A stretch of DNA of 52,343 bases from Theionarchaea archaeon (GTDB lineage: Archaea > Methanobacteriota_B > Thermococci > Methanofastidiosales > SZ-28-30), in assembly GCA_018992565.1 (NCBI GenBank), contig JACVGW010000009.1, forward strand, positions 4,969-57,311, in the 5' to 3' direction. Both the position numbers and the translations under genes were made by a program. The notes beneath the pieces are model-generated. The model did no database searches. It worked only from the letters and a program-made list of their open reading frames with translations, and had not been told where the DNA came from. Below are positions 28,236 to 46,848 of the stretch, in pieces; within the stretch, counting starts at the first letter, position 1; each line of letters begins with the position of its first letter.

Positions 28236-28647
28236 ATAGACACCTACGAAGACACATCACTCCCAGTGCCGCTTTGTTGACCTGTGATATTCTGAAGAGT
28301 GATAGAGCTCCAGCAATCCACGTATCCGTAAATGAATTGTGGTCTCCATCTTGGGCACAAGAGGTACTCGACAGAATCCAGATGCATTCATATAGGTTTG
28401 CCATACTTCAAGAGCAGTTACTTTTGAGGTGGAGCCCATGAAAGGACTAGTCTTTGATCCACGCAGGATACATCCCCTGTGAGACCCTGCGCTCTTCTGC
28501 CGGCTCTGCTTATCCGTTCTCACGCACACAGAGACTCTCTCCCGGATGAGTCGCCGTTTTTCCATGACGTTACCATGAGCACAGCCTGACTCCCACGTAA
28601 TTTCAGCAGTTAATTTCCAAAAAAAACGACCTTTTATCCCTGAAAAC
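28236..28647. other. Divergent intergenic region before the peptide locus
   Basis: About 410 bases between the nitroreductase start and the first promoter of the peptide locus. Minus-strand ORFs here lack start signals and family character. The right end holds the promoter for the PqqD-radical SAM-methyltransferase operon. Nothing else is supported. Confidence 0.4.
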
Positions 28648-28658
28648 TCATATAAACT
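28645..28658 (+). promoter_or_regulatory. TATA promoter box of the PqqD-rSAM-A operon
   Basis: AAACTCATATAAAC lies about 50 bases before the start at 28708, with a core shared by other promoters of this locus (see 36004, 36537, 39564 and 42138). Confidence 0.7.
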
Positions 28659-28707
28659 TTCCTGACAAGAAGTCACATCTATGTGCTCTGTAATAAGAGG
28701 TGAAAAC

Positions 28708-29292
28708 ATGAAACCTTCGGACATAAATGCAGACAAGGAGTATCTAGCATGGGATGAGAACTGCATCTGGTTGTGTAGAGAAAATGATGCTATCATTACG
28801 AGAATCCATTCAATTGGAGCGCAGCTCACCGTGAGGGTCAATGCAGAAGGGGTAAGCCTCTGGAAATTGTGTGATGGAACTCGGACTCTTGAAGACATCA
28901 TTACTTTCCTGGAAGATGAGTACTATACCCCACGTGAAATCCTGATACGAGACGTGGCATGTGCAGTGGAAGCTCTTTCAGGAATGGGATTGATTGTCAC
29001 GAGAAAGGAAAAGAAGCAGTCTTTCCAGCATATCTACAGTGTAGAAAACCATGTACGCTGGGCAGATGATGTAATACTCAGAGAAGAGGATGGAGAACTC
29101 ATATTGATGAACCTGAGTACCAGTCATGTATATGAGTTGCCTCATAAATTCCTGCCTATACTAGAAGAATGCAAAAAAGGCCACACAATAGCAGAAATCC
29201 AGAATCAGGTGGGAGAAGGGTGTGATGTAGTGAACTACGTGCTTGAATATCTGGACAACCTTGGTCTGATTGTTGTCAATTCCCAAGAGTGA
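28708..29292 (+). CDS. Tandem PqqD-domain peptide-binding protein
   Basis: 194 residues in two related halves. The first is a PqqD-type winged helix: GVSLWKLCDGTRTLEDIITF, then YYTPREILIRDVACAVEALSGMGLIV (about 45-100). The second starts with a similar strand (HVRWADDVILREEDGELILMN) and ends VNYVLEYLDNLGLIVV. In known RiPP pathways PqqD (RRE) domains bind the leader peptide and hand it to a radical SAM enzyme. I chose the ATG at 28708 with an AGAGGTGA ribosome binding site over the ATG at 28681. It is six bases ahead of rSAM-A. A paralog lies at 41261-41887. Confidence 0.8.
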   Translation: MKPSDINADKEYLAWDENCIWLCRENDAIITRIHSIGAQLTVRVNAEGVSLWKLCDGTRTLEDIITFLEDEYYTPREILIRDVACAVEALSGMGLIVTRKEKKQSFQHIYSVENHVRWADDVILREEDGELILMNLSTSHVYELPHKFLPILEECKKGHTIAEIQNQVGEGCDVVNYVLEYLDNLGLIVVNSQE

Positions 29293-29297
29293 CTATC

Positions 29298-30656
29298 ATG
29301 AGAGTCAGTCTTTTCACACAGCTTTTGAAGATGGATGAAGGGAGGTATCTTCTTCTCAATCCCGTCTCTGGGAACATACGTGTTGTAGATAATGAAGTCG
29401 CAGACTTCCTTTCAGAATATAGTGAGACAGGATTGGATGGAGAGAGAATTGAAGGGCGGTTACTGGAAATACTCAAAAGAGAGGGGTATATCACTGATTT
29501 TACTGAAGAAGAGGAGAAAAATAGAATACTAGATGCAAGTAGTGCTGTATCACAACGTCCTGTTTATGCGCATGCGATTATCATCACCTATAGATGTAAC
29601 CTTGAATGTTCATACTGCATCAACAGTTCTTTGCTCGGTAGCGCTCCTTCCTGGCTGAATAAGAGAATCTCCAGAGATTCTGTTGACAAGGCCTTCGCCG
29701 TCATGAAGGATATGAAGGAAAAAACGGTAAGACGTCATCCCATTTACGTGACAGGAGGGGAGCCCCTCCTTCCAGAAAACAGAGCGATTGTGGAGTATAT
29801 ACTGGATCTTTCTGCGCATTCAGGGGACAAGGTAGCTGCAAACACCAATGGATATTACCTTGCTCAATATGCTGATCTCTTTGAAAAGTATGGGACCTTC
29901 ACCATGGCGGGAGTCACGCTTGATGGCCCCCCCACTGTGCACGACAGAAGAAGGAAGACAGGACAGGGCCCGGGTTCCTTCTGGAGAATCGTTGAAGGAA
30001 TTGAGGCCATCAGGCCCCTTTCAATACATGTAGGCATTCGGGTCAATGTTGATAAAACGAATATTGATGCTCTTCCCGAACTTGTTGCCTTTTTTGAAGA
30101 GCGCGGATGGGCAGACGACAAGCATTTCTCGTTTTGTGTGTGCAGAGTTCTCAGGACAGGTACTCCACATGATGCCTGTCTCCTGACTCCGCTCGAGGCC
30201 ATACAGAAGATAATTACCATGCATACAGAAGGTGTGCTACCTCGGTACATGAAATATGAATGTTCTTACAGCAACCCCGGGACTCTCTGGGGCACCTTGC
30301 AGGGAAAAGGACCGCTTCGTCCCCGATTGTACTATTGTCCGGGTCTCGGTGAGACCTTCATATATGATCCTCATGGTGATATCTATGGTTGTCCACAGCT
30401 GGTGGGAAATCCGGAATACAGAATCGGAACATATGCCCCTCACTTCAAGCTGGAGCCCTTTCTTGATACGCTTAAGGCGAGGACGCCGTTGAACATGGCT
30501 GAATGCAGGGAGTGTACGTACGCTCTCTTATGTGGCGGAGGATGTGGCTACAATGCCCACATTGAACATGGCTCTTTCATGTCACCATATTGCGAGGAAA
30601 CTGAGGCCTTCCTCACGTACTGGGTCCCCTTCTACCTCAAAAGACTCATTCAGTAG
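29298..30656 (+). CDS. Radical SAM/SPASM peptide maturase rSAM-A
   Basis: 452 residues. The N-terminal ~90 form a small domain typical of this locus (EGRYLLLNPVSGNIRVVD, then LKREGYITDF). The radical SAM cluster motif CNLECSYC is at residues 100-107, a GGEP motif (VTGGEPLLPENR) follows, and a C-terminal SPASM domain (YYCPGLGETFIYDPHGDIYGCPQ, CRECTYALLCGGGCGYNA, then a late Cys) binds two auxiliary [4Fe-4S] clusters. Such enzymes install crosslinks on peptides. The ATG at 29298 has a GAGTGA site; a GTG at 29289 is an alternative. It is in an operon with the tandem PqqD and a methyltransferase; no precursor gene adjoins it. Confidence 0.9.
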   Translation: MRVSLFTQLLKMDEGRYLLLNPVSGNIRVVDNEVADFLSEYSETGLDGERIEGRLLEILKREGYITDFTEEEEKNRILDASSAVSQRPVYAHAIIITYRCNLECSYCINSSLLGSAPSWLNKRISRDSVDKAFAVMKDMKEKTVRRHPIYVTGGEPLLPENRAIVEYILDLSAHSGDKVAANTNGYYLAQYADLFEKYGTFTMAGVTLDGPPTVHDRRRKTGQGPGSFWRIVEGIEAIRPLSIHVGIRVNVDKTNIDALPELVAFFEERGWADDKHFSFCVCRVLRTGTPHDACLLTPLEAIQKIITMHTEGVLPRYMKYECSYSNPGTLWGTLQGKGPLRPRLYYCPGLGETFIYDPHGDIYGCPQLVGNPEYRIGTYAPHFKLEPFLDTLKARTPLNMAECRECTYALLCGGGCGYNAHIEHGSFMSPYCEETEAFLTYWVPFYLKRLIQ

Positions 30657-30679
30657 TTGAAAGCAGTCAAGCGACGAAC

Positions 30680-31381
30680 ATGGCAGAGGTATCACAGAGA
30701 CCCTGGGAAGCTGCGTACAGTAAGGGAGTAGGCATAGTGGAGAGACCTGCGTTTCTTACCTATCTGGCAGCTGAGATGATGAAGAGGGAAACCCTCAAGA
30801 GCGTACTGGATATTGGCTGTGCCGCAGGCAGAAATTCAGTCTTCCTGGCGAGAGAAGGATTTGATGTCGTGGGCATTGAACCACAGTCAACTATTCTGGA
30901 AGTAGCACGCAGCAAAGTATCTGATGAGGGTGCAAAGCCACGGCTTCTGCTGGGAGACCTGGTTGATCTTCCCTTCAAGGAGTCATCATTTGATGCTGTC
31001 CTGTGTTTATATGTCCTCATGTTCCTCCCAGTGGTGAAATTGGCCACGTGCGTGCGGAATATTTTTCAAGTCCTTCGGGACTCAGGAATGGCATTTTTTG
31101 CTTTCTATTCTCCTGAAGACGCAAGTTTTGAAATGGGAGAATGTCTCCATGAGAACACCATACGATGGGACAGGAGGATGGGCCCCTGGGCAGGAATTGA
31201 AGCACACTATTTCACTCACGAGGAAATTCTTCACCTTTTCAACACAGTTGAGATTCTATCTCTTCACCTGGTAACGCAGAGGGAAACACATGATGGAGTA
31301 CCCCATGTACATAGGTTCTGGCAGGTTATTTGCAGAAAAGACTCCACAACCTGTACTCCCGTGAAAGAGAGAACAGGGTGA
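30680..31381 (+). CDS. Class I SAM-dependent methyltransferase
   Basis: 233 residues with motif I VLDIGCAAGRNSVFLAREGFDVVGIE (about 42-66), motif II/post-I LPFKESSFDAVLCLYVLMFLP, and motif III QVLRDSGMAFFAFYSPE. It follows rSAM-A by 23 bases on the same strand, so it may methylate the modified peptide or act in the same pathway (inference). There is no clear ribosome binding site at the ATG. The substrate is unknown. Confidence 0.85.
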   Translation: MAEVSQRPWEAAYSKGVGIVERPAFLTYLAAEMMKRETLKSVLDIGCAAGRNSVFLAREGFDVVGIEPQSTILEVARSKVSDEGAKPRLLLGDLVDLPFKESSFDAVLCLYVLMFLPVVKLATCVRNIFQVLRDSGMAFFAFYSPEDASFEMGECLHENTIRWDRRMGPWAGIEAHYFTHEEILHLFNTVEILSLHLVTQRETHDGVPHVHRFWQVICRKDSTTCTPVKERTG

Positions 31382-31403
31382 AAGGGTTATGCTGGAAAAG
31401 TCC

Positions 31404-32570
31404 TCAGAGGCTTCTTCTTCCTGGTGGTACAGAACATTGCGGATCTGGCATGAATGGATCACCATAGTATCCGTAGGAAATGCATGAGGCCCCTCCAGAG
31501 CAGAGGTATGGAGCATTGGTATTGAAATAGCAGGTCTGGCACTTCCCTTTGACGTGCTTTGACTTCCGTCGGAGTTTCCACAGGAGAGGGTGGCCCCATA
31601 TGTCCTGGATGTCTTGTGTCAGGATATTGCCTATAGGAATGGGAAGTCTCCGACATGGATAGACACTACCATCTTCCATGACATTGATGATATTCTTACC
31701 AATGTTGCCACCGATTCCGCATGAAACTCCATTCTTGGCGTGATTTGATGTATCAGCAGGGTCTTGGTATATGACAGGCCAGTCACATCGAGAGCGAGTG
31801 AGCACGGGCTTGGGAATAAGGGGCGCAGCTTCTCTCGTCATGGAATCAAGATCGTCGCTGAGGTTCCTGTATAGAGCATACGTCTCCTGAGAAGTCAGCA
31901 TTGTGTTCAGCATCTCTTTCCCCCTTCCCCAGGGCACGAGGCGAGTCACTGTCAATACATCCACATCTAGTTCCTTTGCCAGGGCCATAATGTGGAAGGC
32001 ATCTTTGTAGTTGCCCTTATGAACAACAAAGTGCATATGGACCTCCAGTGATGTGAGAGTCAGTGTCCTGATAGCCTGTATCGCTTCCTGGAATCTCCCG
32101 CTGCCCCGAATTCTATCATGGGTTTCAGCCGAAACACCGTCCACACTGATTTGAATATAATTGACAGCTCTGTTTTCCTCGAGTCTATCAGCAAGTGTCC
32201 TGGTGGTGGTAGATCCATTGGACAGGACTGCAACATGGACGGGAGTCAGGTGATCTTCAACATAATCCTGCAAGTAGGCAAGGATATCCCAGAAGTGAGG
32301 TGAAATTGTGGGCTCCCCTCCAGATATCCAGATATAGGGAGTTCTTCCCCACTTCTTCATGGTTGTCAGGAACTTGTCAATCACGAGCATACACTGATCA
32401 AGTGGCATGTCATAGTGCGGTTCATCTTCATTGTAGCAATGTCTGCAGCGCAGGTTACACCGACCGGTGATCTGAAATTGCATAACAAAGAACTTCCTCC
32501 TGTCAGTTCTCTCAGTTGTCCTGATATCTCTCTTTCTCGAGACGTAACCTGGTTCACTCGGTTCTCTCAT
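31404..32570 (-). CDS. PqqE-like radical SAM/SPASM protein rSAM-B
   Basis: 388 residues. CNLRCRHC at residues 38-45 is the radical SAM motif, SGGEPTISPHFWDIL follows, and the C-terminus is a PqqE-like SPASM (CGIGGNIGKNIINVMEDGSVYPCRRLPI, CQTCYFNTNAPYLCSGGASC, final DPQC). Unlike the larger enzymes here it lacks the N-terminal YLLxN domain. It overlaps rSAM-C by 17 bases and follows peptide P1 on the same strand, so P1-rSAM-C-rSAM-B is probably one operon. Its close paralog is rSAM-E (38118-39323). An internal ATG at 32483 with AGGAGG 12 bases upstream is a possible alternative start. Confidence 0.88.
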   Translation of the reverse strand: MREPSEPGYVSRKRDIRTTERTDRRKFFVMQFQITGRCNLRCRHCYNEDEPHYDMPLDQCMLVIDKFLTTMKKWGRTPYIWISGGEPTISPHFWDILAYLQDYVEDHLTPVHVAVLSNGSTTTRTLADRLEENRAVNYIQISVDGVSAETHDRIRGSGRFQEAIQAIRTLTLTSLEVHMHFVVHKGNYKDAFHIMALAKELDVDVLTVTRLVPWGRGKEMLNTMLTSQETYALYRNLSDDLDSMTREAAPLIPKPVLTRSRCDWPVIYQDPADTSNHAKNGVSCGIGGNIGKNIINVMEDGSVYPCRRLPIPIGNILTQDIQDIWGHPLLWKLRRKSKHVKGKCQTCYFNTNAPYLCSGGASCISYGYYGDPFMPDPQCSVPPGRRSL

Positions 32571-33939
32571 GAGGTATTCCCTCTCTCCATTTTCCTCTCA
32601 TCTCGTAAAGAAACTGCAGGTATGAATTGACCCAGGAGTCTGTGATGTCTCGCGGTAGTGGGCATATTGGATTCTCAAAAGACCCCGTTGTCTGGAAAGC
32701 TTCGTATGCGCAGCCTGAGCCGCAGAGCAACCCATACTTACATCTCCTGCACTGCTCAATACGTGCTACATTCCTGGTTCTCATTTTCTGACGTTCTTCG
32801 TCATAGAGTTCGAATGTTGGGGAATATCTGCCGATTTCATGTTGCAGGACAGTGCACGAATAGATTATCCCTTCAGGGTCAAATACAAATCCGTATGGCG
32901 TATAGCAGCAGTTGACAGACAGCAGGTCCTCTCTTGCTTCGAATTTTCGAGACGCAGAGAGCTTCAACCATGAGTCAAAGAAATTTGTGAAGGTATTATA
33001 GAAGTTGAAGAGTCGAGTTGAAGGAAATTTCCTGTGTAATTCCATGAGTCTTTCCAGCATGTCATACCATTTCAAAAAATAGGGATATTCTGAGCTCACG
33101 AATTTTATTGTACTGACTACAAATGAGAGATGCCTGTCTTCATGCCATCCTCGAGATATCACAAAGTCTGCAACCTCAGGCAAATACTCTATGTTCTGGC
33201 TATCTGCATTGAACTTCAGTACTATGTTCACATGTTTACGTGCTTCCTCTATATTCTGCACGATAGACTCAAATGTCCCACTGCCATCTCTTCTGATTCG
33301 TCGTTTGTCATGAATTCGCTGAGGACCATCCAGGGATACCTTAACCGGTATCTGATATTTTCTCAGCAGCGGAAGATATACATCCATATCCACTCCATTT
33401 GTGGTTATGCTGAGAAGGTTCATCTTCCTCTTTGCAGCCTCATGAAGAATTGAAGAGACTATGTCTTCATGTGCGGGCAGCAGAGGTTCCCCTCCTGTCA
33501 GGGACAATTGGGAAGAGGTGATCCCTTCCTGATCAAAGAGCTTATCAAGGGCAGCACTGAACAAATCAATGGGCAGCTTCTTTGAGGGTGAGTCATTCTT
33601 TATATCAGATCGTAATCTCCGGAAGCAGTAGACGCACTTCAGCTGGCAATCGTAGGAAGGTATTGCAATACATACTGCTATCTTCCTCCATGTCGCTGCC
33701 TCTTTTTGGTGCAGATCTTCTACGAGTGCTTCATCCTCGCGATAGTCTTCGACTATGTAATGATTTCTTTTTAGGAATTCTTGAGTATCTTCCTGTCCTC
33801 CCCCGGTTCTATCGGCGTCTGGGCATGTGAGTACTCTAATGACATCCTCATCGACTTCGTGCATCGTTCCTCGAAGGAAGTTCATTAGGAGATACTTCCC
33901 TTCCGAGACTTTACAGTAATGAGTGTACGGGCTGATCAT
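32554..33939 (-). CDS. Radical SAM/SPASM peptide maturase rSAM-C
   Basis: 461 residues. It has the N-terminal domain KYLLMNFLRGTMHEVDED, the radical SAM motif CQLKCVYC at about 98-105, TGGEPLLPAHED, and a SPASM region (NCCYTPYGFVFDPEGIIYSC, CRRCKYGLLCGSGCAYEA, NPICP). The ATG at 33939 has GGAGGAG just upstream, so I reject the TTG at 33954. It lies 36 bases downstream of peptide P1, behind a U-tract, and is most likely P1's main modifying enzyme. Confidence 0.9.
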   Translation of the reverse strand: MISPYTHYCKVSEGKYLLMNFLRGTMHEVDEDVIRVLTCPDADRTGGGQEDTQEFLKRNHYIVEDYREDEALVEDLHQKEAATWRKIAVCIAIPSYDCQLKCVYCFRRLRSDIKNDSPSKKLPIDLFSAALDKLFDQEGITSSQLSLTGGEPLLPAHEDIVSSILHEAAKRKMNLLSITTNGVDMDVYLPLLRKYQIPVKVSLDGPQRIHDKRRIRRDGSGTFESIVQNIEEARKHVNIVLKFNADSQNIEYLPEVADFVISRGWHEDRHLSFVVSTIKFVSSEYPYFLKWYDMLERLMELHRKFPSTRLFNFYNTFTNFFDSWLKLSASRKFEAREDLLSVNCCYTPYGFVFDPEGIIYSCTVLQHEIGRYSPTFELYDEERQKMRTRNVARIEQCRRCKYGLLCGSGCAYEAFQTTGSFENPICPLPRDITDSWVNSYLQFLYEMRGKWREGIPHERTE

Positions 33940-33952
33940 CCTACTCTCCTCC

Positions 33953-33965
33953 AAAAAAAGAAAAA
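33953..33965 (-). terminator. U-tract between peptide P1 and rSAM-C
   Basis: On the minus strand the RNA reads UUUUUCUUUUUUU here, 10 bases after the P1 stop. Archaeal termination uses such U-runs. Partial stopping would give more precursor message than enzyme message, as is common in RiPP operons. Confidence 0.55.
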
Positions 33966-33975
33966 TGTGGCAAGG

Positions 33976-34125
33976 CTAAAACCACACCATGCTACAATGG
34001 CACTCCTGGCCTAGGCACGCACAGCATGCGCAGCCACAAATACCGCACGGATTGTTATCTGGGGTAGTGCCTTCGATGTTAATGGTTATTCCTTGCCACG
34101 TTTTGCCTACTTCCTTGATTTTCAT
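33976..34125 (-). CDS. Cysteine-rich RiPP precursor peptide P1
   Basis: 49 residues on the minus strand, too short for most gene callers. It has a leader-like N-terminus (MKIKEVGKTWQGITINIEG, no Cys in the first 26 residues), then a core with eight Cys in 18 residues: PCGICGCACCACLGQECHC, ending SMVWF. Cys positions are 27, 30, 32, 34, 35, 37, 42 and 44. A GGTGAG ribosome binding site sits 4 bases before the ATG, with a CTTATAAG box about 40 bases upstream. It lies directly before rSAM-C and rSAM-B. A modified thioether-type peptide is the likeliest product; a metallothionein-like metal binder is the main alternative. Confidence 0.8.
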   Translation of the reverse strand: MKIKEVGKTWQGITINIEGTTPDNNPCGICGCACCACLGQECHCSMVWF

Positions 34126-34161
34126 GTTCTCACCTTCAATTATATGTGAGAGACCAAAGTG

Positions 34162-34178
34162 CTTCTTATAAGTTTTGT
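34162..34178 (-). promoter_or_regulatory. TATA promoter of the P1-rSAM-C-rSAM-B operon
   Basis: On the minus strand ACAAAACTTATAAGAAG lies about 40 bases before the P1 start, at the right spacing for a short leader with a ribosome binding site. Confidence 0.65.
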
Positions 34179-34507
34179 ACGGTCCAAAGGCAGTTTTTTT
34201 GCAGGGGAACTTCCATGAATTAGTTACTGGGTTCTCCCTTTACAGGAAAAGAGCTTTCATACAACAGAGCTGGAAAACACCACAGCACACAATGGAATCT
34301 ATGCCTCAGAAAGAGCAGTTGCATTCTTGACAACTGTACCTCTTATGAGGCATGTTCCCAAAGATAATTCTCTTATTAGAGGTATCAAGATGAAAAAAGC
34401 ACTAATTGAGTAGATTTGATGTCCGATGTGTGGCAGCCAATTGGGACCGGTACACGTCTTGAAATGTGAAGGGATTGAAGGCCAGTCCATGCAGTGGATT
34501 AATCCCT
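34179..34507. other. Intergenic region with hairpin and CxxC relic
   Basis: Between regulator R1 and peptide P1. It holds the hairpin at 34301-34353. A plus-strand frame beginning around 34421 reads CPMCGSQLGPVHVLKCEGIEG; it has a stop just upstream and no start codon, so it looks like a decayed zinc-ribbon gene. There is no intact gene. Confidence 0.4.
34301..34353. repeat. Strong imperfect hairpin
   Basis: Arms 34301-34321 and 34331-34353: ATGCCTCA pairs with TGAGGCAT, CAGTTG pairs with CAACTG, and the middle AAGAG pairs with CTCTT with small bulges. The loop is about nine bases. It lies downstream of R1 on R1's strand and upstream of the P1 promoter. It may be a terminator, a small RNA or a mobile-element remnant. 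Confidence 0.55.
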
Positions 34508-35473
34508 TCAAAGGTTCTTTGCTATATGATATTCAATGATAGCATGTTCTTCACTGTGGATTATCTCTTTTTTCAGCAGCTTATTTGTCAATGAGAGCAG
34601 ACAGGGTTGGAACCCCTGGAATCCTTTGAAGTCGTTGCTTCTGACAATGTCCTTCTTCAGATGTGCGAGCACAAATAGTCTGTCTGAAACTCTGAAGAAA
34701 AGACTTGATGTAGGAATCTGGGAAAACAGGTCTATGATAAAGTCCTCGTACTCTGTTCGAAAACAGAAGAGGTAGGGATCATATTCTGAGATTCCTTCAG
34801 GGAAGTAACTGGTGGTGACAGTGCAGCACGTGGGCAATTTTGCCAGGAACTTGTAAACCTTCGCTGTAGTGATCAAATGCTCTCTCATTACGGGAATGAA
34901 CGTTTTCCTCAGGTTATGCCTGAAATACGTCAGTAGGTTCTCATCTTCTGAATCCCACTCTGCGGTCTCATTCCAATGTGTCCTTATGGCACATTGGGGG
35001 TTATATCTCAGAGGGCTAAAATCGTCTATCTTATTCCTGATGGTTTCAAGCGCTTGATTCCATGAGCAGTCTGGAGCGTAGGACATGTAGTAATCGGAAC
35101 GAGGAGCTTCTACCAGGATTTCCCCACTAATGTCCACTCTTTCTTTTGAAATAATCCATGAATTTGCAAACCCAGTCATTTTCGCATGATAGGATATATT
35201 TGAGTCTTTTTCAAGACGTGTGTACGTTTCGAGAGGATCCTTTGCACTACAAAAAGAAATGTATTCCTTCATGTTAGCATATGAACGCTTCCTGACATGA
35301 GGACCCAGTATGTGACTTCCTTCCATTGCTTCTTCTATTCTCCTGCTCGCGGTGCGGGGATCCACGCCAAGAGCAGCTGCTATCTCTTTCTTCTTGATTC
35401 GAGGGTTCTTGAACCACAGAATTTCATACAGCCTCCTATACTGCTTCATCCTATCCTCAAGACTGATGAGCAT
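34508..35473 (-). CDS. HTH regulator R1 of the peptide locus
   Basis: 321 residues. An N-terminal helix-turn-helix (YEILWFKNPRIKKKEIAAALGVDPRTASRRIEEA, about 14-48) is followed by RKRSYANMKEY and a ~260-residue domain I cannot assign. A conserved CCTVTTSYFPEGIS-YDPYLF block lies near residue 230. It is about half identical to R2 (45883-46848) over its whole length and of equal length. It lies upstream of P1 on the same strand, suggesting local control. Start: the ATG at 35473 with a GGGAGG site, not the GTG at 35479. The C-terminal domain may sense a ligand or the peptide (inference). Confidence 0.75.
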   Translation of the reverse strand: MLISLEDRMKQYRRLYEILWFKNPRIKKKEIAAALGVDPRTASRRIEEAMEGSHILGPHVRKRSYANMKEYISFCSAKDPLETYTRLEKDSNISYHAKMTGFANSWIISKERVDISGEILVEAPRSDYYMSYAPDCSWNQALETIRNKIDDFSPLRYNPQCAIRTHWNETAEWDSEDENLLTYFRHNLRKTFIPVMREHLITTAKVYKFLAKLPTCCTVTTSYFPEGISEYDPYLFCFRTEYEDFIIDLFSQIPTSSLFFRVSDRLFVLAHLKKDIVRSNDFKGFQGFQPCLLSLTNKLLKKEIIHSEEHAIIEYHIAKNL

Positions 35474-36003: not shown

Positions 36004-36016
36004 AAATCATATAAAC
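36004..36016 (+). promoter_or_regulatory. TATA promoter box of peptide P2
   Basis: AAATCATATAAAC ends 124 bases before the P2 start codon. The P3 box (42138-42150) is identical in these 13 bases and lies at exactly the same distance from its start. Confidence 0.7.
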
Positions 36017-39323: not shown

Positions 39324-39563
39324 GGTTCTATATGGTTTGGCAAGAGGAGAAATGCTGCTTTTCTTTTGCGCCCTCTTGCAGCTTTCCAAAAGAAAAGAAC
39401 AGGCAATAGGGGAATATTTCGTCTGTCAGTAAGGACTCTCTTACCAATATCTGTTTTTATTTTGTTGCGATAGTTATCTGTTGAAAGAATACTATTTGAA
39501 GAAGCCACTCCCGTAAAATTTCCGTTATGCCCCCTGTAGAAAAAACATACAGTCACTGTTTCA

Positions 39564-39577
39564 TAAACTCATATAAG
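39564..39577 (+). promoter_or_regulatory. TATA promoter box of the rSAM-F operon
   Basis: ATAAACTCATATAA(G) lies about 120 bases before the rSAM-F start and has the same core as the PqqD-rSAM-A promoter. Confidence 0.6.
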
Positions 39578-39698
39578 GTTGGTTAGACACTTCTACATAA
39601 CTGAGAAGAAGGATGCTGGGACAGCCCAGTTTGTGCTTCAGGAAGACTTTCAGGGCAAGAATGAAGGAGACCTCATGAGAATGAAGGAGCGTGAGAGT

Positions 39699-41114
39699 AT
39701 GAAACCTCTAAAGAAAAGCATTGTCATTGATTTGAAAGATGGAGATTATCTTCTTATCAATCCGTATCGAGGACTCGGTGATGTTGTAGATAAGGAGACT
39801 CTCAAAGAGCTTTCTTCTCAAGATGTAGAGATTTCCAATGGGACCATGCAGGCTCTTGCACGGAGAGGACATCTGGTAGAGGATGGAGAAGAGGACGACC
39901 TTATTCAGGCATTGAGAAGACGTGCCAACAAAATGCACACAGAGTCGAAAAAGATCAAAGGTCATGGGATAGTAATAACATATGACTGCAATCTCCGCTG
40001 TCCTTATTGTTACGAGAGACATCTGTTTGCAAAAGAACAGAAGCGCCGTGCCACTATGAGCAGGAAAACTGTAGATATGCTTTTTGAAACAATACAGGTT
40101 ATTGATTCAGAAGACAACGATGGAGGGGCCTCGGAGAATCGAGAAGAGAACCCCATGACGCTCATAGGAGGAGAACCTCTGCAGAAAGAGAACTTCTCCA
40201 TCGTTGAATACATACTCAAAAAAGGTGCAGAGCTGGGATACCCCTTTTCTATTGTTACCAATGGGGCTGATCTCTCCCATTTTGCTCCCCTCTTATCTCA
40301 ATATGACATCAAGAAGATCCAGATTACTATTGACGGCGTCAAGGAAGTGCACGATAAGAGACGATACCGAAAAGGTAATCGAGGCAGCTTTGATGATATA
40401 GTAAAGGGTATAGATGAAGCGCATAAGAATGGTCTTCCTGTGGTTATTAGAATTAATGCTGATTCTGACAATATCGACAGAGTCCCGGAATTTGCAGAGT
40501 TCTACATGGACAAGGGATGGTATCCAGACATACCAGCTCACGTATCAAATGTAACAGCCTCGGAGTGTCTGATGTACTCTCCCCTCATTACTGCTGAGCA
40601 GTTTACTAAAAAGACTATTGATCTCTTCCTGAAAGATGAGAGGATGAAAGTCTTCCGGCATTCACTCCTGACTCACAACGATCTCTTGAGACATCTCGTA
40701 AGGGACGAGGAGTTTAGCTTGAAGTTCTGGTATTGTGGTGCTCAAGTATCAATGCTGATGTATGACCCACTGGGGGACATATATCCCTGCTTTGAAGCCG
40801 TCGGCCATGATAGTCAGAAGATTGGAGAATATATTCCAGAATTGAAGTTCAATGAGACCATGAACCAATGGCAGAGTCGAACAGTATTCACCATTCCTGA
40901 GTGCCTGGAATGTAACCTGGCATTTATCTGTGGCGGAGGATGTGCATACGGTGCGATAAGGACTATGGGGTCACTGAACAAGCCCTATTGCGACAGGATG
41001 AAATTCATCATTGAACATGAATTTCCCTATGTATATCACCTGATGAAGACGGAAGAGGGGGGTTTCAAAAAAGCAGAGTCACAGGGCGGAATTCAGAAGC
41101 CCTCGCATCCTTGA
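39699..41114 (+). CDS. Radical SAM/SPASM peptide maturase rSAM-F
   Basis: 471 residues. N-terminal domain DGDYLLINPYRGLGDVVD, radical SAM motif CNLRCPYC at 97-104, GGEPLQKENFSIVEY, and SPASM (WYCGAQVSMLMYDPLGDIYPC, CLECNLAFICGGGCAYGA, NKPYC). The hydrophilic C-terminal tail is longer than in its paralogs. I chose the ATG at 39699 because it aligns with paralog starts and has AAGGAG nine bases upstream; the ATGs at 39675 and 39681 are possible. It lies ahead of the second tandem PqqD gene and P3 on the same strand. Confidence 0.88.
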   Translation: MKPLKKSIVIDLKDGDYLLINPYRGLGDVVDKETLKELSSQDVEISNGTMQALARRGHLVEDGEEDDLIQALRRRANKMHTESKKIKGHGIVITYDCNLRCPYCYERHLFAKEQKRRATMSRKTVDMLFETIQVIDSEDNDGGASENREENPMTLIGGEPLQKENFSIVEYILKKGAELGYPFSIVTNGADLSHFAPLLSQYDIKKIQITIDGVKEVHDKRRYRKGNRGSFDDIVKGIDEAHKNGLPVVIRINADSDNIDRVPEFAEFYMDKGWYPDIPAHVSNVTASECLMYSPLITAEQFTKKTIDLFLKDERMKVFRHSLLTHNDLLRHLVRDEEFSLKFWYCGAQVSMLMYDPLGDIYPCFEAVGHDSQKIGEYIPELKFNETMNQWQSRTVFTIPECLECNLAFICGGGCAYGAIRTMGSLNKPYCDRMKFIIEHEFPYVYHLMKTEEGGFKKAESQGGIQKPSHP

Positions 41115-41260
41115 TTGCATTCTAAAAGGCACTTCAGAGTAGGACAATTATCCAGAGAAGAGAAAAACGTGCATTTCGGTGGTCAACAATCACATACGTT
41201 GTGGGGATTCAACCTGCAGGGAGATGTGACAGACCAGTCAGGTGAGGAGGTTGATTCAAT

Positions 41261-41887
41261 ATGAAAGAAAATCAACAAAAGTATGTCCGATGGTCAGAAA
41301 ATTGTGTCTGGCAACCAGTTGGAGAAATGCTTTTCATTGCGAAAGTTCTCCACCATAATGAAGGACTCACCCCAGCCCGGGAGAAGAATGACGGCAAGAA
41401 GTTGAATGGAGCAGGAAAAGACATCTGGGACCTTTGTGACGGTACCAGAACCATGGAGGAGATTGTGAATCAATTGATGGAAGAGTATACAGGTGACCCT
41501 GAAGAGATTCACAGTGATGTACAGAATGCAGTCTCAAAACTCATAGAAGAAGAATTCCTGGTTTGGGGAGAGAAATCAGAGAAATGTCACCCCCTTGAGA
41601 TTAAGATGAAGGAGTATCCGACCTGGGATGGCAATGTGTTGTGGAACCAGGTTGATAATGAAGTTGTTGTCATTAATAATGTAACAGGACTGGACTATGG
41701 GTTCAGGGACGACGTGGCTGAGACATGGAAGCTCTGCAGTGGGAAGCAGTCGCTGGACGAAATCCTCAGTATACTAGAGGAAAGAGGAATCATCAATGAA
41801 GAAAATCCGCCTGTTCGATTCAAACTATTGATCAAGCAATTCATCAACATTGGCGTTGTCACCATGAGAAAGGAGCCTGGTTCCTGA
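41261..41887 (+). CDS. Second tandem PqqD-domain protein
   Basis: 208 residues, paralogous to 28708-29292. Both halves begin with a Trp-Asx-rich strand (YVRWSENCVW and TWDGNVLWNQVDNEVVVINN). The first PqqD block is GAGKDIWDLCDGTRTMEEIVNQ, then DVQNAVSKLIEEEFLVW; the second is ETWKLCSGKQSLDEILSI, then FKLLIKQFINIGVV. It is likely a leader-binding carrier that serves rSAM-F and perhaps other enzymes. A GAGGTT site precedes the ATG. It lies 146 bases after rSAM-F with only a weak promoter-like stretch between. Confidence 0.82.
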   Translation: MKENQQKYVRWSENCVWQPVGEMLFIAKVLHHNEGLTPAREKNDGKKLNGAGKDIWDLCDGTRTMEEIVNQLMEEYTGDPEEIHSDVQNAVSKLIEEEFLVWGEKSEKCHPLEIKMKEYPTWDGNVLWNQVDNEVVVINNVTGLDYGFRDDVAETWKLCSGKQSLDEILSILEERGIINEENPPVRFKLLIKQFINIGVVTMRKEPGS

Positions 41888-42137
41888 ATGGGAACTGGAA
41901 TATGAAGCGGATCATGACATATTAGAACGTGACCGTCTTCCAGAGCAGAGGATACTACACATTTATTACTTATTTTGGGAACCCGTAAGCCGCACGACGC
42001 TTTCTGATTTCATAATAGACAAGGAATATTCCTATTTCACAGAGAAAATTCACTTTGCAGAGTATTTTCTAGAGGTGAAAGTACATTTCAGAAGCGTTGG
42101 TTTTCAACAAGAAAATTAGTGCTCTTTAATCGCAAAA

Positions 42138-42150
42138 AAATCATATAAAC
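42138..42150 (+). promoter_or_regulatory. TATA promoter box of peptide P3
   Basis: AAATCATATAAAC is identical to the P2 box and ends 124 bases before the P3 ATG, the same distance as for P2. Confidence 0.7.
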
Positions 42151-42273
42151 ATGACGTTAGAAGGAGAACCGAGGAATATTCCTGGATGCACTGAAGCACC
42201 GCTGAGGGCAGAGTGCCCGATACGTGGTGAGTTTTGAAGTGCAAGAAAACCATGAACCAGGAGGTGATATATC

Positions 42274-42441
42274 ATGAAGGCAATTTCACTGAACAAGAAG
42301 CTATGGAGAGATGTGGCCATGGGTGATCTTGATTTCGTATCTCCAGACTGTGATGTACCGCTGGTGACTGGCTGTGGGTCTATACCGTGCCCCTCCCTTT
42401 GCATACTGCATTGCTATCCCCATATGTGTATTCACTTCTGA
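42274..42441 (+). CDS. Cysteine-rich RiPP precursor peptide P3
   Basis: 55 residues. The leader MKAISLNKKLW is identical to P2, with SPDC at 23-26; Cys lie at 26, 34, 39, 43, 47 and 52. The first three Cys match P2 exactly (motif PDC-x7-C-x4-C) and the tail differs (CPSLCILHCYPHMCIHF), with His residues added. A GGAGGTGAT ribosome binding site, the strongest of the three, precedes the ATG. It converges with rSAM-G and follows the second tandem PqqD gene. Confidence 0.88.
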   Translation: MKAISLNKKLWRDVAMGDLDFVSPDCDVPLVTGCGSIPCPSLCILHCYPHMCIHF

Positions 42442-42598
42442 GCAACAGCTTTTTACAACATCCCTGCCCCCATATCGCCCATTGCAGCTTTTGCGGTAGG
42501 GATGGTAACCTGTGATGCATTGCGAGAGACACAAAGAAAACTTCACAGCAACTCAGAACCCACAAGACTGAAGAATGATTCCAATGAAAGATGTTGTA

Positions 42599-43957
42599 TT
42601 ATTCTCCCGGGATATTTTCCTGGGTTCTTTTTCTTTCTCCCTGAATCATTTTCCCGAACAAGGGATAATAGACATCTACTGCTTGGTTTGAGAACTCGCA
42701 ATCAGGCTTCAGAAGGTCCCCCTTGGTCTGGGCAGCATAGTTGCCACAACCTCCCCCACAGATCATGGCATACCTGCAGTGTCTGCAAGATTTCATATTG
42801 AAAATTGTTCTTTCTTTCCATTGATTGAATCGCTCATTGAAGGTGACCTCAGGATAGTATGTGCCAACTGCCTCTTCTTTATTGCCTAGAGTGTCAGTAC
42901 AGAGGTAGATATCTCCGAAAGGATCGAACCATGTCTGCGATAGATAGGAACGGCAGTAACTCATTTGGGGAAGCCACTTATCTACAAAACCAAGTTTTTG
43001 GGCTATTGGACCTAACCCTCTCAGGAAAACGTCTCTGAGAACCTCATCCCCCAACAAGAACTGCAGGTCTTCTTTTTTCAGGTTATGCATAAAATTGTAG
43101 CAACCTCCTGGTGTATGATGGCGAACTGGCGAGAGGTAGATCATATTGTCTCTCTGATCCCATCCTTTCTCGTGGGCAAATTCCATAAAACTGGGCAATG
43201 TCCTCACTGTGGAATGATCAATATTGACTCTCACATACACAGTAAAGCCTGCTTCTGCGAGCTGATCTATAGATTCAACAATCTGGCAAAAAGAACCAGT
43301 TCCATCAGCTCTTTTCTTCCTCCTGTTGTGGATTTCCTCTATTCCATCTACTGTGATTTGGAGTGATGTGATCTTGCTCTCAAGGAGGAGAGGGAGAAAG
43401 AGGCTGCTCTCCAATCCATTGGTTACAATAATGAAGGATTTATCACAGCGCGTTCCTCTTGTCAGGATGTACTCGATGAGTTCATAGTTGCTTGAGATGA
43501 GAGGTTCTCCACCCAGTAAATGTATGGGTGCTCTTGTATGAGGATTCAGAGTTTCCATTGCCTTGAAAGCTGCATCCACCTGCGAATGAGTCATTTTTCG
43601 CTGTAACCAGGGTTCATCTCGTGTGAAGACAGATGAAACATAGCAGTAGTCACACCGCATGTTGCAGTCATACGTGGGTATAAGAGCAAACAGTGTGTGG
43701 TCTCTGTGCAGACTTTGAATTGATTCCAGGCTCTTGAATGCTTTTTCAGTTTCCTCTTTTGGAGAGAGTTCTGTGAGAAACCCCTGGGAAACGAGAGCAG
43801 ACACTTCTTCTGAAGTCTCTTGTTCAGGATTCACACCATTGAGGATTCGCAGTATTTCCTCTGGGCCAAAGAGGATAGCCCCTGTGAATGTATTAACAAA
43901 AAGAAATTCTCTGTTCTGGAGAGGTATCACCAGGACGTATCGACTACGTCTGAGCAA
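42599..43957 (-). CDS. Radical SAM/SPASM peptide maturase rSAM-G
   Basis: 452 residues from a TTG at 43957, chosen because it has a strong GGAGGGAGG site and aligns with paralog starts; the longer frame to 44161 would overlap rSAM-H by over 200 bases. N-terminal domain REFLFVNTFTGAILFGPEE, radical SAM motif CNMRCDYC at 98-105, LGGEPLISSNYE, and SPASM (SYCRSYLSQTWFDPFGDIYLC, CRHCRYAMICGGGCGNYA, final DC). It overlaps rSAM-H by 14 bases, so the two are coupled. It converges with P3, its likely substrate together with rSAM-H. Confidence 0.88.
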   Translation of the reverse strand: MLRRSRYVLVIPLQNREFLFVNTFTGAILFGPEEILRILNGVNPEQETSEEVSALVSQGFLTELSPKEETEKAFKSLESIQSLHRDHTLFALIPTYDCNMRCDYCYVSSVFTRDEPWLQRKMTHSQVDAAFKAMETLNPHTRAPIHLLGGEPLISSNYELIEYILTRGTRCDKSFIIVTNGLESSLFLPLLLESKITSLQITVDGIEEIHNRRKKRADGTGSFCQIVESIDQLAEAGFTVYVRVNIDHSTVRTLPSFMEFAHEKGWDQRDNMIYLSPVRHHTPGGCYNFMHNLKKEDLQFLLGDEVLRDVFLRGLGPIAQKLGFVDKWLPQMSYCRSYLSQTWFDPFGDIYLCTDTLGNKEEAVGTYYPEVTFNERFNQWKERTIFNMKSCRHCRYAMICGGGCGNYAAQTKGDLLKPDCEFSNQAVDVYYPLFGKMIQGERKRTQENIPGE

Positions 43958-45287
43958 GGTCCTCCCTCCGTGATCTATATAGATGGGGGACGACCACATT
44001 GAGAATTTCATGATATTCCAAGCAGAGAGGCCTGTCAAGTGACCCATATTTCTCCAGAGCTGCAAACCCACACCCCCCACCACATAAGAGAGCATACTTG
44101 CATTCTTTACATTCTGGAATGGTGAATATCGTTCTTTCTCTCCATTGACTGTATTTTTCATTCCACTTTAGTTCAGGATCGTACCTGCCGACTCTTCCAG
44201 CTTCGTCACCCACATGTTCAAAACAGACGTAGAGATCTCCGAAGGGATCATAAATAATCATGTCGTCGTTTGCCTCGCAGTACCAGAAGCGGGGAGCCCC
44301 TAATTCTCCCTTGAGGAAGAGCCTTTCAAGTACTGCGATTCCTTTGTGGTCAAAAGAAACGGTGTTCAACTCTTGGTGAGAAGTTGCGTTGGAAACAACA
44401 GCCGTATACACATCCTTCCTTTGCATGGAATGCTTGTAAGTGCCACAGGTTTTCTCGAAGATAGGTGAGAAGTGCATGGAAAGGAGAGGATTATCCACCC
44501 ATCCTTTTTTCCTGGCGAAATCTACTACTTCAGAGAGGGCACCAAGATTTTCACTATCAAGATTTGTCCTGAGAAAGACTCTCAGATTCTCCTTGAGTGC
44601 TGCGTCTATTCCAGCTGCAATCTGGTCAAAAGATCCAGTACCATCCTTTCTTATTCGTCGTTTATCATGGAGGTTCTTTGGTCCGTCAATGGTGACCTGA
44701 AGGGTGACATTCCGGCCCCGCAGCAGGTCCATATACTGACATAGTGATACCCCATTTGTGAGTATGATGAAGGAATGTCCAAGCGATTCTCCCCTTTCCA
44801 GGATTTCTTCGACTGCCGGCATAGTTTTTTCCATCAACGGCTCTCCACCATACAGGGCGATTCTACCTTTCTCAGTTCCATCAACTTCAGCAATGGCCTC
44901 GAATACCTTATCAATAAGTTCCTGACTGATGACTGTGCTCAACCACTGGGTTCCTTTTTTCCGGAGATCTGAAAGAAAGCAGTATGGGCACACCAGGTTG
45001 CAATCATAGGTTGGAATGATCATATGTGTATGCAGGTTCTTCCTGTTTTCTGTAAACCTCTCATAGAGAGTTCGTATGTCTTCGAATTCCTCTTCAGGAG
45101 ATGCTTGCGTTATATGTCCTCTCTCATGAAGGAAGTTGAGGATTGAAGGCTCCCCCTGGGAGAGGTCACTCTGAAGCAGGTTGATAACATCAGTGTCCAC
45201 AACATCAACAGCTCCTGTTAAGGAATTGATGAGCAGGTATTCATCCTCATCTGCCTGTACTGCAATGCAGTATGTGCTCATTCTCAT
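43944..45287 (-). CDS. Radical SAM/SPASM peptide maturase rSAM-H
   Basis: 447 residues. The first 39 residues are identical to rSAM-D and the first ~64 very similar. Radical SAM motif CNLVCPYC at 96-103, YGGEPLMEKTM, and SPASM (WYCEANDDMIIYDPFGDLYVC, CKECKYALLCGGGCGFAA, RPLC). The ATG at 45287 has an AAGGTGA site; the longer frame to 45368 is not needed. An ACATATAAG box lies about 120 bases upstream on the minus strand. A 17-codon upstream mini-ORF (starting MKELLVNVFS, at 45358) lies in the leader. Confidence 0.9.
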   Translation of the reverse strand: MRMSTYCIAVQADEDEYLLINSLTGAVDVVDTDVINLLQSDLSQGEPSILNFLHERGHITQASPEEEFEDIRTLYERFTENRKNLHTHMIIPTYDCNLVCPYCFLSDLRKKGTQWLSTVISQELIDKVFEAIAEVDGTEKGRIALYGGEPLMEKTMPAVEEILERGESLGHSFIILTNGVSLCQYMDLLRGRNVTLQVTIDGPKNLHDKRRIRKDGTGSFDQIAAGIDAALKENLRVFLRTNLDSENLGALSEVVDFARKKGWVDNPLLSMHFSPIFEKTCGTYKHSMQRKDVYTAVVSNATSHQELNTVSFDHKGIAVLERLFLKGELGAPRFWYCEANDDMIIYDPFGDLYVCFEHVGDEAGRVGRYDPELKWNEKYSQWRERTIFTIPECKECKYALLCGGGCGFAALEKYGSLDRPLCLEYHEILNVVVPHLYRSRREDLAQT

Positions 45288-45296
45288 GATATTCAC
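45095..45296 (-). repeat. Near-identical N-terminal segment shared with rSAM-D
   Basis: Inverted copy of 36632-36833; see that entry. Identity is total for the nine bases before the start plus the first 92 coding bases. Confidence 0.85.
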
Positions 45297-45780
45297 CTTT
45301 TTCTTCATCCAGCCCGCACCAGTCCTACGGAAAAGACATTTACGAGGAGTTCTTTCATGAAAAGTCAACCTATTATTATCCTTGCAACAATAAACATCAG
45401 AGAATACTTATATGTATTTCCAGGGCACGAAATGTATTTATTTTCTGGCAAAGGATCAAGAAGGGTTCCCTGTGATCTAATTCGTATCTCCACCTGGCAT
45501 CCGTATTCACCTCCAGGTATGAGAAAGAAGTGCCAGGGCCCTATCCTTTCACTGCATGTTCCCGTCCCGGGGTCTGGAGGAGACAGTCTGATGTAGGACA
45601 TGAGGCATATGAACAAGTTGTATTGTCACTATCCTCATTGGTTCTGTTCGTGTGTTCAACTTGGATTCTTTCATTCTCAGGACGTAGTCCTCACACCCTT
45701 TGTGTGGAACTGCTCCCTTCTACAGCTCCCACCTTTTCCAACCCCCCTTGCATGGGTTGTCCTTCTTCTATTGACATAGT
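45297..45780. other. Divergent intergenic region between rSAM-H and R2
   Basis: Holds the rSAM-H promoter box (ACATATAAG, minus, about 45408-45416) and its leader. The ORFs across 45530-45814 and 45365-45616 lack start signals and family likeness. There is no sign of a further precursor gene. Confidence 0.45.
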
Positions 45781-45783
45781 TAG

Positions 45784-45840
45784 ATTCTCATTCGATAAGT
45801 TTATAAGGTCTTGATAAGAATATTCTTAACGAATGAGAAT
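45784..45840 (+). promoter_or_regulatory. R2 promoter flanked by an 11-bp inverted repeat, with a central palindrome
   Basis: ATTCTCATTCG (45784-45794) and CGAATGAGAAT (45830-45840) are perfect inverted repeats. Between them lie a TATA box (GTTTATAAGG, 45799-45808) and a perfect 14-base palindrome TAAGAATATTCTTA (45815-45828). The start codon of R2 is 43 bases past the second arm. This is a strong candidate operator for autoregulation or metal-type repression. Confidence 0.75.
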
Positions 45841-45882
45841 GATCTCACAAAACAGAATGTTTTAAAGGAGGACTGAGCGTTA

Positions 45883-46848
45883 ATGGATACAAGTAAAGAA
45901 GTCAGGAGGAGACATTACCGTGCGATCTACGAACTTTTCTGGTCAGAGAACGCCCGAATCCACCTGAAGGATATTGCATCGAGACTCCGGGTCAATCCCC
46001 GTACGGCACGGAGAAGAGTAGAAGAAGCTTTTAGCCAGGGCTACGTTACAGGACCTCAGCTCAGGAAACGGTCATATGCGAATATGAAGGAATATGTTTG
46101 CTTCGTCAATTGTGAAAACCCCACTGAAGCATATCTCGATCTTAGCCAGGATGCAGCCGTTGTATATCACGCACGACTGGCAGGATTCGCCAGTTTATGG
46201 GTTAGTTCAACAAGAAAAGTGACCATTGATGGCACTCCCGTGATTAAAGGCCTGCGTTCAGACTATCATGTGTCATTTGCGCCCTATCGTTCATGGGAAA
46301 AGGCAATAGAAGTCATGCGGGGAAAGATTGAATCCTTTCATCCAGAGTGTTATGAACCCACATCGCACATTAGCTCCCACTGGGATGAAACCATAACGTG
46401 GGATGAAGAAGATGAAAAGCTCTTTCGATACTTCGAGTCTGACTTGAGGAGGATTTTCGTACCTGTCATGAAGAAACATCTCATCAGCACAGGGAAAATC
46501 TACCAGTTCCTGGAAAGACTTCCTCAATGCTGTACTGTCACAACAAGCTTCTTTCCAGAGGGGATCTCAGCTTACGACCCTTATCTCTTTGTTTTTGGGA
46601 CTGAATATGAGGATTTCATCGTTGATCTCTTTTCACAGATGCCGACATCAGCTTTCTTTTTCAAGGTCTCAGACATGCTCTTTCTTCATGCGCATGTAAA
46701 GAAGGACTTGATGAGATGCGAGGATTTGGGTGCTCCTAGCATACGTCAGCTGCCCATCCCGGGTCTCATCAGTGAACTCCTCAAGAAGGGAATCATTGAG
46801 AGTGAAGAACACGCTGTGGTTGAGTATCACTGGACAAAGAGTCTCTAG
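45883..46848 (+). CDS. HTH regulator R2 of the peptide locus
   Basis: 321 residues, paralog of R1 with the same layout: HTH (YELFWSENARIHLKDIASRLRVNPRTARRRVEEA, about 14-48), RKRSYANMKEY, then the unassigned C-terminal domain with CCTVTTSFFPEGIS-YDPYLF and TEYEDFIVDLFSQMPTS. A GGAGG site lies 11 bases before the ATG. It is divergent from rSAM-H-rSAM-G. Two near-equal regulators, each beside one arm of the cluster, suggest module-specific control by related signals. Confidence 0.78.
   Translation: MDTSKEVRRRHYRAIYELFWSENARIHLKDIASRLRVNPRTARRRVEEAFSQGYVTGPQLRKRSYANMKEYVCFVNCENPTEAYLDLSQDAAVVYHARLAGFASLWVSSTRKVTIDGTPVIKGLRSDYHVSFAPYRSWEKAIEVMRGKIESFHPECYEPTSHISSHWDETITWDEEDEKLFRYFESDLRRIFVPVMKKHLISTGKIYQFLERLPQCCTVTTSFFPEGISAYDPYLFVFGTEYEDFIVDLFSQMPTSAFFFKVSDMLFLHAHVKKDLMRCEDLGAPSIRQLPIPGLISELLKKGIIESEEHAVVEYHWTKSL

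Follow-up and report, generated by a model that had tools for sequence, protein, structure and literature searches.

The window, a stretch of 52,343 nucleotides (nt) on a 57-kb contig of a Theionarchaea metagenome-assembled genome (MAG; 2.8 Mb in 154 contigs), very probably carries an accessory island for ribosomally synthesized and post-translationally modified peptides (RiPPs). The island would consist of two modules in which a leader bound by a RiPP recognition element (RRE) presents a Cys-rich core for modification by several radical SAM enzymes of the SPASM type. The interval from 27.6 to 45.3 kb encodes eight radical SAM enzymes and a methyltransferase, together with two proteins of the tandem-RRE (PqqD) type and three Cys-rich open reading frames (ORFs) of peptide size (Table 1). 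An initial annotation of the DNA had claimed eight enzymes with complete CxxxCxxC and SPASM motifs, two doubled PqqD-type proteins, a methyltransferase and three short Cys-rich ORFs, and all of these were confirmed, the radical SAM genes at the places it had given. To its extent of 28645–46848 a nitroreductase gene has to be added at one end, and a regulator gene has to be excluded at the other. The assignment as a composite archaeal RiPP locus of SPASM maturases, RRE proteins and Cys-rich precursors is likewise supported. Two of the conditions named in that annotation as refuting it were examined, and neither held: the best matches of the enzymes are peptide-maturase models and structures, although none of these families reaches its cut-off, and precursors of the same family are found beside radical SAM genes elsewhere in this genome and in the sister species.

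Eight radical SAM genes within about 18 kb compare with about 0.75 expected from the 116 PF04055 matches of the 2.8-Mb genome. Comparison between genomes was based on SPASM (TIGR04085) matches because PF04055 counts for the relatives appear to reach a ceiling at 66 per genome. This genome has 67 SPASM matches and the sister species of the same genus, Theionarchaea archaeon SZ_20-22.3 (G001), has 35, whereas each of 24 other genomes of the class, all relatives from other families, has 0 to 5. With these counts the Theionarchaea are a strong outlier in SPASM protein number, and the locus therefore belongs to a lineage-wide expansion, of which it is the densest patch seen in the genome.

The putative precursors P1, P2 and P3 carry the RiPP assignment on the peptide side. 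P2 and P3 have the leader MKAISLNKKLWxDV in common, and their family is present at five places in this genome (E values between 4e-27 and 4e-20), with one more place in the sister (2e-14); nothing convincing was found in the other 113 genomes of the class. In Thermococci and other orders the precursor profile gave weak matches (E values of 0.007–0.08), which were discarded because they include frames with stops, parts of long ORFs and short partial matches. A match at G001:C1:308760 was also discarded because it falls inside a radical SAM ORF. At three other loci of the genome the leader-sharing paralogues adjoin radical SAM genes, and at six places in two genomes a maturase has a short precursor beside it, in which the leader is conserved and the core varies. 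The precursor of locus C29 is syntenic with one in the sister and identical to it in 38 of 50 residues. Substitutions between the two number 11, 4 and 20 by codon position (20 of 35 in the third), the ratio of nonsynonymous to synonymous rates is 0.18 (NG86) to 0.32 (YN00), and by this codon pattern the pair is under purifying selection. In addition, a GGTGA ribosome-binding site lies just upstream of the start in all seven precursors considered (P1, P2, P3 and those of C97, C29, C30 and G001:C18) compared with 139 of 6,318 other small ORFs (2.2%). Because of the leader-sharing paralogues, the third-position substitutions and the GGTGA sites, the peptide ORFs look like real genes.

For RREs of the PqqD clade, W/Y/LxxP/L/I and the KPxWxxP of StsA are reported as recognition sequences (PMC12710340). 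The proposed leader motif, K-x-W-x-x-hydrophobic, resembles these sequences. To W/Y/LxxP/L/I, P1 (WQGI) and the C29 precursor (WTEI) fit exactly, P2 and P3 (WTDV and WRDV) nearly, and the precursors of C97 (WTDA) and C30 (WADG) in part. The P1 leader differs from that of P2 and P3 but retains K-x-W-x-G-I, which is also present in the candidate precursor of locus C140 and, with a G before the W, in that of G001:C10.

All eight radical SAM enzymes possess the three cysteines of the CxxxCxxC core and all seven C-terminal SPASM cysteines. Six of them, referred to here as long enzymes, have an N-terminal RRE; the starts of four (C1, A, B and C2) were corrected on the basis of homologues and the upstream sequence. 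The two S enzymes have at most 68 residues ahead of CxxxCxxC, which appears too short for an RRE plus linker. Best NCBIfam models include CefB, TIGR04463, PapB and Clo7bot. CefB (NF038107) is the top NCBIfam match for all six long enzymes, N-terminal domain included, with 110–168 bits against a cut-off of 600. Scores for PapB (NF047865) reach at most 132 bits (curated cut-off 340), those for the SCIFF-type model (TIGR03974) at most 100 (cut-off 425), and those of the S enzymes for TIGR04053 and ACGX (TIGR04340) lie at 137–158 (cut-offs 395 and 400). Among the NCBIfam families shown, none of the window enzymes scanned passed a curated subfamily cut-off, and subfamily membership is therefore not claimed. 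Enzymes of loci C154 and C71 in the same genome are nearer to CefB (388 and 378 bits). The closest models and structures belong mostly to maturases of peptides or proteins. In terms of structure, the long enzymes are nearest to CteB, TigE, anSME and SuiB, and the S enzymes to SkfB and PqqE. The epimerase EpeE is also among the structure matches of C2. In the AlphaFold model of C2, residues 1–81 fold as βββ-ααα ahead of the barrel and the SPASM domain.

This fold is the winged helix by which RREs are defined (PMC12710340). It is confidently predicted for the N-terminus of C2 and twice, as two complete domains, for tandem-RRE protein 2, and Foldseek matched the latter model to RREs. For tandem-RRE protein 2 the complex of TbiB1 with its leader came first (TMt 0.82–0.84), followed by ThcOx and, lower, TigE, PqqD, SuiB and CteB. 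The best Pfam stretch spans only the first half in both tandem proteins. Against the model for PqqD of pyrroloquinoline quinone (PQQ) biosynthesis (TIGR03859) they score 41.3 and 26.3 bits, below the cut-off of 46, whereas the cut-off of the general PF05402 is exceeded. Full-length tandem RREs of this family were found in two of 115 genomes of the phylum. In the sister, a tandem RRE is fused to an S enzyme (L109:10302-12152), its residues 251–610 match the models that the S enzymes match, and its identity to S2 is 44%. This arrangement suggests that the double-RRE protein pairs with the RRE-less short radical SAM enzyme.

Within module II, docking and catalytic parts appear to have different histories. 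C1 and C2 are identical in 57 of their first 60 residues, and the first 20 codons are the same at the DNA level. Per 20 codons, identity runs 100, 93 and 88% and then falls to a background of 33–60%. The catalytic parts of the two enzymes are 34.5% identical. In the catalytic tree C1 groups with the enzymes of C29 and G001:C18 (100/99), which likewise come after their precursors, and C2 groups with that of C30 (100/99); in the RRE tree C1 joins C2 (96/92). P2 and P3 share a 117-nt block of Shine–Dalgarno (SD) site plus leader, outside which their cores differ. Recent recombination between the RRE tracts of C1 and C2 is supported by these patterns. The simplest reading is that the RRE moved by gene conversion or transfer while both precursors kept one leader. 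A wider proposal would have leader and RRE form a matched, homogenized address label passed between divergent catalytic domains by recombination, one label recruiting A, B, C and, via the tandem-RRE adaptor, S to fast-changing Cys-rich cores, and the tens of SPASM enzymes in the 2.8-Mb genome constituting a large, undescribed repertoire of peptide chemistry. Taken jointly, we consider this evenly balanced between right and wrong.

Combining these observations, we propose that P1, P2 and P3 are precursors whose short N-terminal leader with the K-x-W-x-x-hydrophobic motif precedes a variable Cys-rich core. The leader would be bound in cis by the long enzymes rSAM-1, rSAM-2, A, B, C1 and C2 through their own RRE, and in trans by the tandem-RRE protein on behalf of S1 and S2, as PqqE uses PqqD. 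Several radical SAM enzymes may then modify the bound core oxidatively in turn, most likely by Cys-to-carbon thioether cross-links of the ranthipeptide or sactipeptide sort. The methyltransferase and the flavin nitroreductase may tailor the core, and the leader would be cut off by a protease encoded elsewhere. In this view leader and RRE would act as an exchangeable address label: one leader is common to P2 and P3 and one RRE to C1 and C2, with different cores and catalytic domains. Leader binding, the order of the steps, product chemistry, export and biological role are what we infer from the parts; for the link of leader to RRE, motif resemblance and the co-inheritance of both are the evidence.

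Several points weigh against this proposal. Product, expression and leader binding are read from sequence and predicted structure. The window precursors are without an orthologue in the sister, and the conservation case draws on paralogues and the C29 module. The leader motif was defined post hoc, and as a loose pattern it gave one to four matches in controls compared with nine real ones, seven of which are precursors. Neither a peptidase nor a dedicated transporter was seen in the island, and the source genome is a MAG split into many contigs. This last point also bears on the C1/C2 similarity, which could be an artefact of assembly or ancestry instead of domain exchange: the two repeats lie in opposite orientation on one contig, separated by 8.2 kb, and inversion between them is conceivable by sequence. 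We regard such an artefact as quite improbable. Gene order at both copies matches that of relatives, with a precursor followed by a C1-type enzyme in C29 and G001:C18 and with C2-type and B enzymes facing the precursor in C30 as in the window; identity declines gradually before it drops to background, and the two trees conflict with support. An assembly inversion was accordingly judged unlikely from gene order. Still harder to credit, and largely refuted, is the idea that the small ORFs are chance and that the enzymes act on some other target, such as a protein or a small-molecule cofactor. Short ORFs do arise easily, 348 of at least 20 amino acids overlapping this 20-kb stretch, but chance would hardly account for a family that recurs beside radical SAM genes, has SD sites and a leader in common and, in its orthologous pair, is under purifying selection.

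With regard to the product, the most probable chemistry is thioether cross-linking, given that the closest models and structure are those of thioether or Cys-rich-peptide enzymes. A serious, though less probable, alternative is that the SPASM enzymes install C–C cross-links (cyclophanes), epimerize or modify otherwise, the cysteines being structural (metal or disulfide) and the product not a thioether peptide. The cyclophane formers YhhB, FxsB, GrrM and XyeB in the same model lists and EpeE in the structure list are compatible with it, as are the aromatic and proline residues in the cores of P2 and P3; several maturases per module also make more than one chemistry likely. On the other hand, the top models (CefB, TIGR04463, PapB, Clo7bot) and the structure of CteB represent Cys-rich-peptide or thioether enzymes, and Cys and Gly are abundant in the cores. 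Mature peptides could also serve as metallophores or as metal or cofactor carriers (methanobactin-like, or redox-active like PQQ) instead of antagonistic or signalling peptides. The CxxC and CGC clusters could bind metals, the S enzymes are PqqE/SkfB-like, and genes for immunity or an exporter were not seen. However, the cores vary strongly among paralogues, and the island is present in one sister species and absent from the other, as would be expected of a variable secondary metabolite more than of a core cofactor. Nor was a gene for a metal transporter noticed in the island, and we consider such a function improbable.

The island is organized in two modules. Module I (27.6–34.1 kb) comprises the nitroreductase, tandem RRE, rSAM-1 and methyltransferase, followed by the convergent S1, rSAM-2 and P1. 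Module II (36.1–45.3 kb) comprises P2, C1, S2, A, tandem RRE and P3, followed by the convergent B and C2. Loci related to module II were found at C30 (tandem RRE, A, precursor, S, B, C), at C97 (tandem RRE, A, precursor, truncated B) and, each with a syntenic partner in the sister, at C29 (precursor, C, D) and C62 (tandem RRE, A, E). Orthologues of A adjoin a tandem RRE in C97, C30, C62 and G001:C1. Locus C140 is module I-like, with S, radical SAM enzyme, candidate precursor, methyltransferase, tandem RRE, S and nitroreductase. The nitroreductase of the window, probably a tailoring enzyme, is 63% identical to the copy beside an S-type enzyme in C140 (L044) and 41% to the copy beside S in sister locus L081; this tandem-PqqD/S locus also contains a methyltransferase with 27% identity to that of the window. 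A Rhodothermaceae match (L082) to the tandem-PqqD query covers only part of the query in a different neighbourhood and was not accepted as a member. The repeated module duplication proposed initially does not amount to simple tandem copying: the two modules differ, each has relatives at other loci, and an RRE appears to have been exchanged between paralogues.

Table 1. Features of the window. Positions are those of the window; aa, amino acids; 3+7 Cys, cysteines of the radical SAM core and SPASM region; HTH, helix-turn-helix; AF2, AlphaFold2; pLDDT, predicted local distance difference test; pTM, predicted template modelling score.
Feature	Position	Strand	Basis and remarks
Accessory island	26719..45785	.	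19.1 kb; corresponding interval of the sister 0.59 kb
Nitroreductase-family flavoenzyme	27606..28235	-	PF00881, E=8e-33
Tandem-RRE (double PqqD) protein 1	28681..29292	+	PF05402; full-length alignment with tandem-RRE family; 4-nt overlap with next gene
rSAM-1, SPASM maturase, N-terminal RRE	29289..30656	+	PF04055; 3+7 Cys; NCBIfam best CefB/TIGR04463, below cut-off
Class I SAM methyltransferase	30680..31381	+	Pfam Methyltransf_25/11
S1, short SPASM radical SAM enzyme without own RRE	31404..32570	-	PF04055 and PF13186; 3+7 Cys; CxxxCxxC from residue 38
rSAM-2, SPASM maturase, N-terminal RRE	32554..33954	-	Model matches; 3+7 Cys; downstream of P1
P1, putative precursor, 49 aa	33976..34125	-	Leader ...GKTWQGITI..., Cys-rich core CGICGCACCACLGQECHC; GGTGA few nt upstream of ATG
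Winged-HTH regulator	34508..35479	-	Weak HTH_24 match; 53% identical to 45883 paralogue; more paralogues in genome
Leader repeat, first copy (SD site and P2 leader)	36127..36243	+	117-nt direct repeat, 79% identical to second copy
P2, putative precursor, 54 aa	36140..36304	+	Leader MKAISLNKKLWTDV..., core GCGGGGCYFSPCPPWIWPCNFF; leader family; SD AGAGGTGA
RRE-coding tract of C1	36632..36844	+	One arm of 213-nt inverted repeat (with 45084-45296); arms 92% identical
C1, SPASM maturase, N-terminal RRE	36641..37993	+	Trees; 3+7 Cys; corrected start 36641; downstream of P2
S2, short SPASM radical SAM enzyme without RRE	38118..39389	-	3+7 Cys; homologue fused to tandem RRE in sister
A, SPASM maturase, N-terminal RRE	39699..41114	+	3+7 Cys; ORF opens 39579; start ~39699 from homologues
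Tandem-RRE protein 2	41261..41887	+	PF05402, 3.5e-18; AF2 pLDDT 85, pTM 0.82
Leader repeat, second copy (SD site and P3 leader)	42261..42377	+	117-nt direct repeat
P3, putative precursor, 55 aa	42274..42441	+	Leader MKAISLNKKLWRDV..., core GCGSIPCPSLCILHCYPHMCIHF; leader family; SD GGAGGTGA
B, SPASM maturase, N-terminal RRE	42599..43957	-	3+7 Cys; TTG start (43957) overlaps C2 end; catalytic part 57% identical to C30_B
C2, SPASM maturase, N-terminal RRE	43944..45287	-	3+7 Cys; corrected start 45287; AF2 pLDDT 87, pTM 0.87; Foldseek best CteB 7.5e-21, TigE 2.2e-17
RRE-coding tract of C2	45084..45296	-	Other arm of inverted repeat
Winged-HTH regulator at island edge, not an island member	45883..46848	+	Orthologue at same site of island-less sister

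The boundaries of the island follow from one sister contig, G001:C23 (L120), to which the flanks align with 75–80% nucleotide identity up to 26505 (weakly to 26718) and again from 45786. By blastn, nothing else in the island interval aligns to this contig except the regulator paralogue. With two genomes compared, the island may have been gained here or lost in the sister. Its G+C content is slightly below that of the flanks; no tRNA gene was found in the window, and no integrase was noticed. At the island site the sister has an aldo/keto reductase-like gene nearby (L120:9655-10644) that was not seen at this place in the window. The initial annotation had described two paralogous regulators as part of the locus. 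Their paralogy was confirmed, but the copy at 45883 lies outside the island because the sister without the island keeps an orthologue at that point. A palindrome, ATTCTCATTCG...CGAATGAGAAT, at 45784–45840 is located upstream of this regulator only, in a region that aligns to the sister genome, and is probably the regulator's own operator. With both arms it is not repeated elsewhere in the window; no operator common to the whole cluster was detected, and co-regulation of the cluster by the paralogous regulators is not claimed. Further copies of this regulator family were observed at L064:10327-11995 (two in tandem), L020:398-1360 and L066:3600-4538.

Further candidate peptide loci were observed in both genomes. 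A second, unrelated precursor candidate of 38 amino acids with a GTG start, MEPMNMTILIEAEEQIMEPLCITEGTGSWCCKICHPYV, occurs at L056:3190-3306(+) and in the sister at L112:10109-10225(-). The two are conserved in 36 of 38 residues; each precedes a pair of SPASM enzyme genes, and neighbour order agrees between the genomes. Just upstream of paired SPASM enzymes, an ORF of tandem CALEVQPTF peptides (four repeats at L039:10549-10725(-), six in the sister at L110:9883-10110(-)) may be either a multi-core precursor or a DNA repeat. Three short ORFs of the type MKCEKVE...CPPxPCxCxNI surround one CefB-like SPASM enzyme at L055:9290-11272, Cys/Gly-rich ORFs containing ..LAELVEPGISISGSS.. and ..AKLIESGNTDDAVILGECVLGGEPLNGDC.. 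flank a SPASM enzyme pair at L057:2045-5686, and an 82-residue ORF with two QGPCGGCD motifs adjoins a radical SAM gene at L045:10347-10595(-). In the sister, a Cys-rich precursor candidate, three SPASM enzymes and the fusion of tandem RRE and S-type enzyme are clustered at L109:5954-12152.

The maturation logic itself is of a known kind, and it is the combination of features that is unusual: more than one maturase for each precursor, a tandem RRE that appears to serve a radical SAM enzyme lacking an RRE of its own and that is fused to such an enzyme in the sister, and recent RRE exchange between maturases whose precursors have the same leader. These features make a portable RRE–leader address label directly testable, which bears on hybrid RiPP design. 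The island looks like a factory for chemically cross-linked peptides built from exchangeable docking and chemistry parts. In archaea, ranthipeptide and sactipeptide clusters have been predicted in bulk by a survey that does not mention Theionarchaea and according to which experimental validation had until then reached only two haloarchaeal lanthipeptides (PMC12144867). The literature searched yielded no paper that links Theionarchaea to biosynthetic gene clusters.

Among known systems, the ranthipeptide pairs SCIFF/CteA–CteB and PapA–PapB (TIGR03974, NF047865) are similar in combining a Cys-rich precursor with a SPASM enzyme carrying an N-terminal RRE, and CteB is the nearest solved structure by sequence and fold. 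These examples have one maturase each. Unlike them, the window encodes six long and two short maturases, which score far below the curated cut-offs. A second comparison is with the 'Cys-every-fifth' maturase CefB (NF038107) and with TIGR04463; CefB is the best model of the six long enzymes, yet at 110–168 instead of 600 bits. PqqD–PqqE and streptosactin StsC–StsB share the separate-RRE logic with the S enzymes, and the leader motif resembles the KPxWxxP of StsA (PMC12710340), but the RRE protein of the window is a tandem of two RREs and is fused to S in the sister. A further resemblance exists to the cyanobactin oxidase ThcOx, of which 221 columns are covered when the tandem RRE is aligned by Foldseek; in Theionarchaea, S and tandem-RRE genes are likewise repeatedly accompanied by a flavin nitroreductase-type enzyme. 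In contrast, the solved ThcOx oxidase is one chain of ~460 residues, whereas tandem RRE and nitroreductase are separate genes in the window, and no YcaO protein was noticed in the island.

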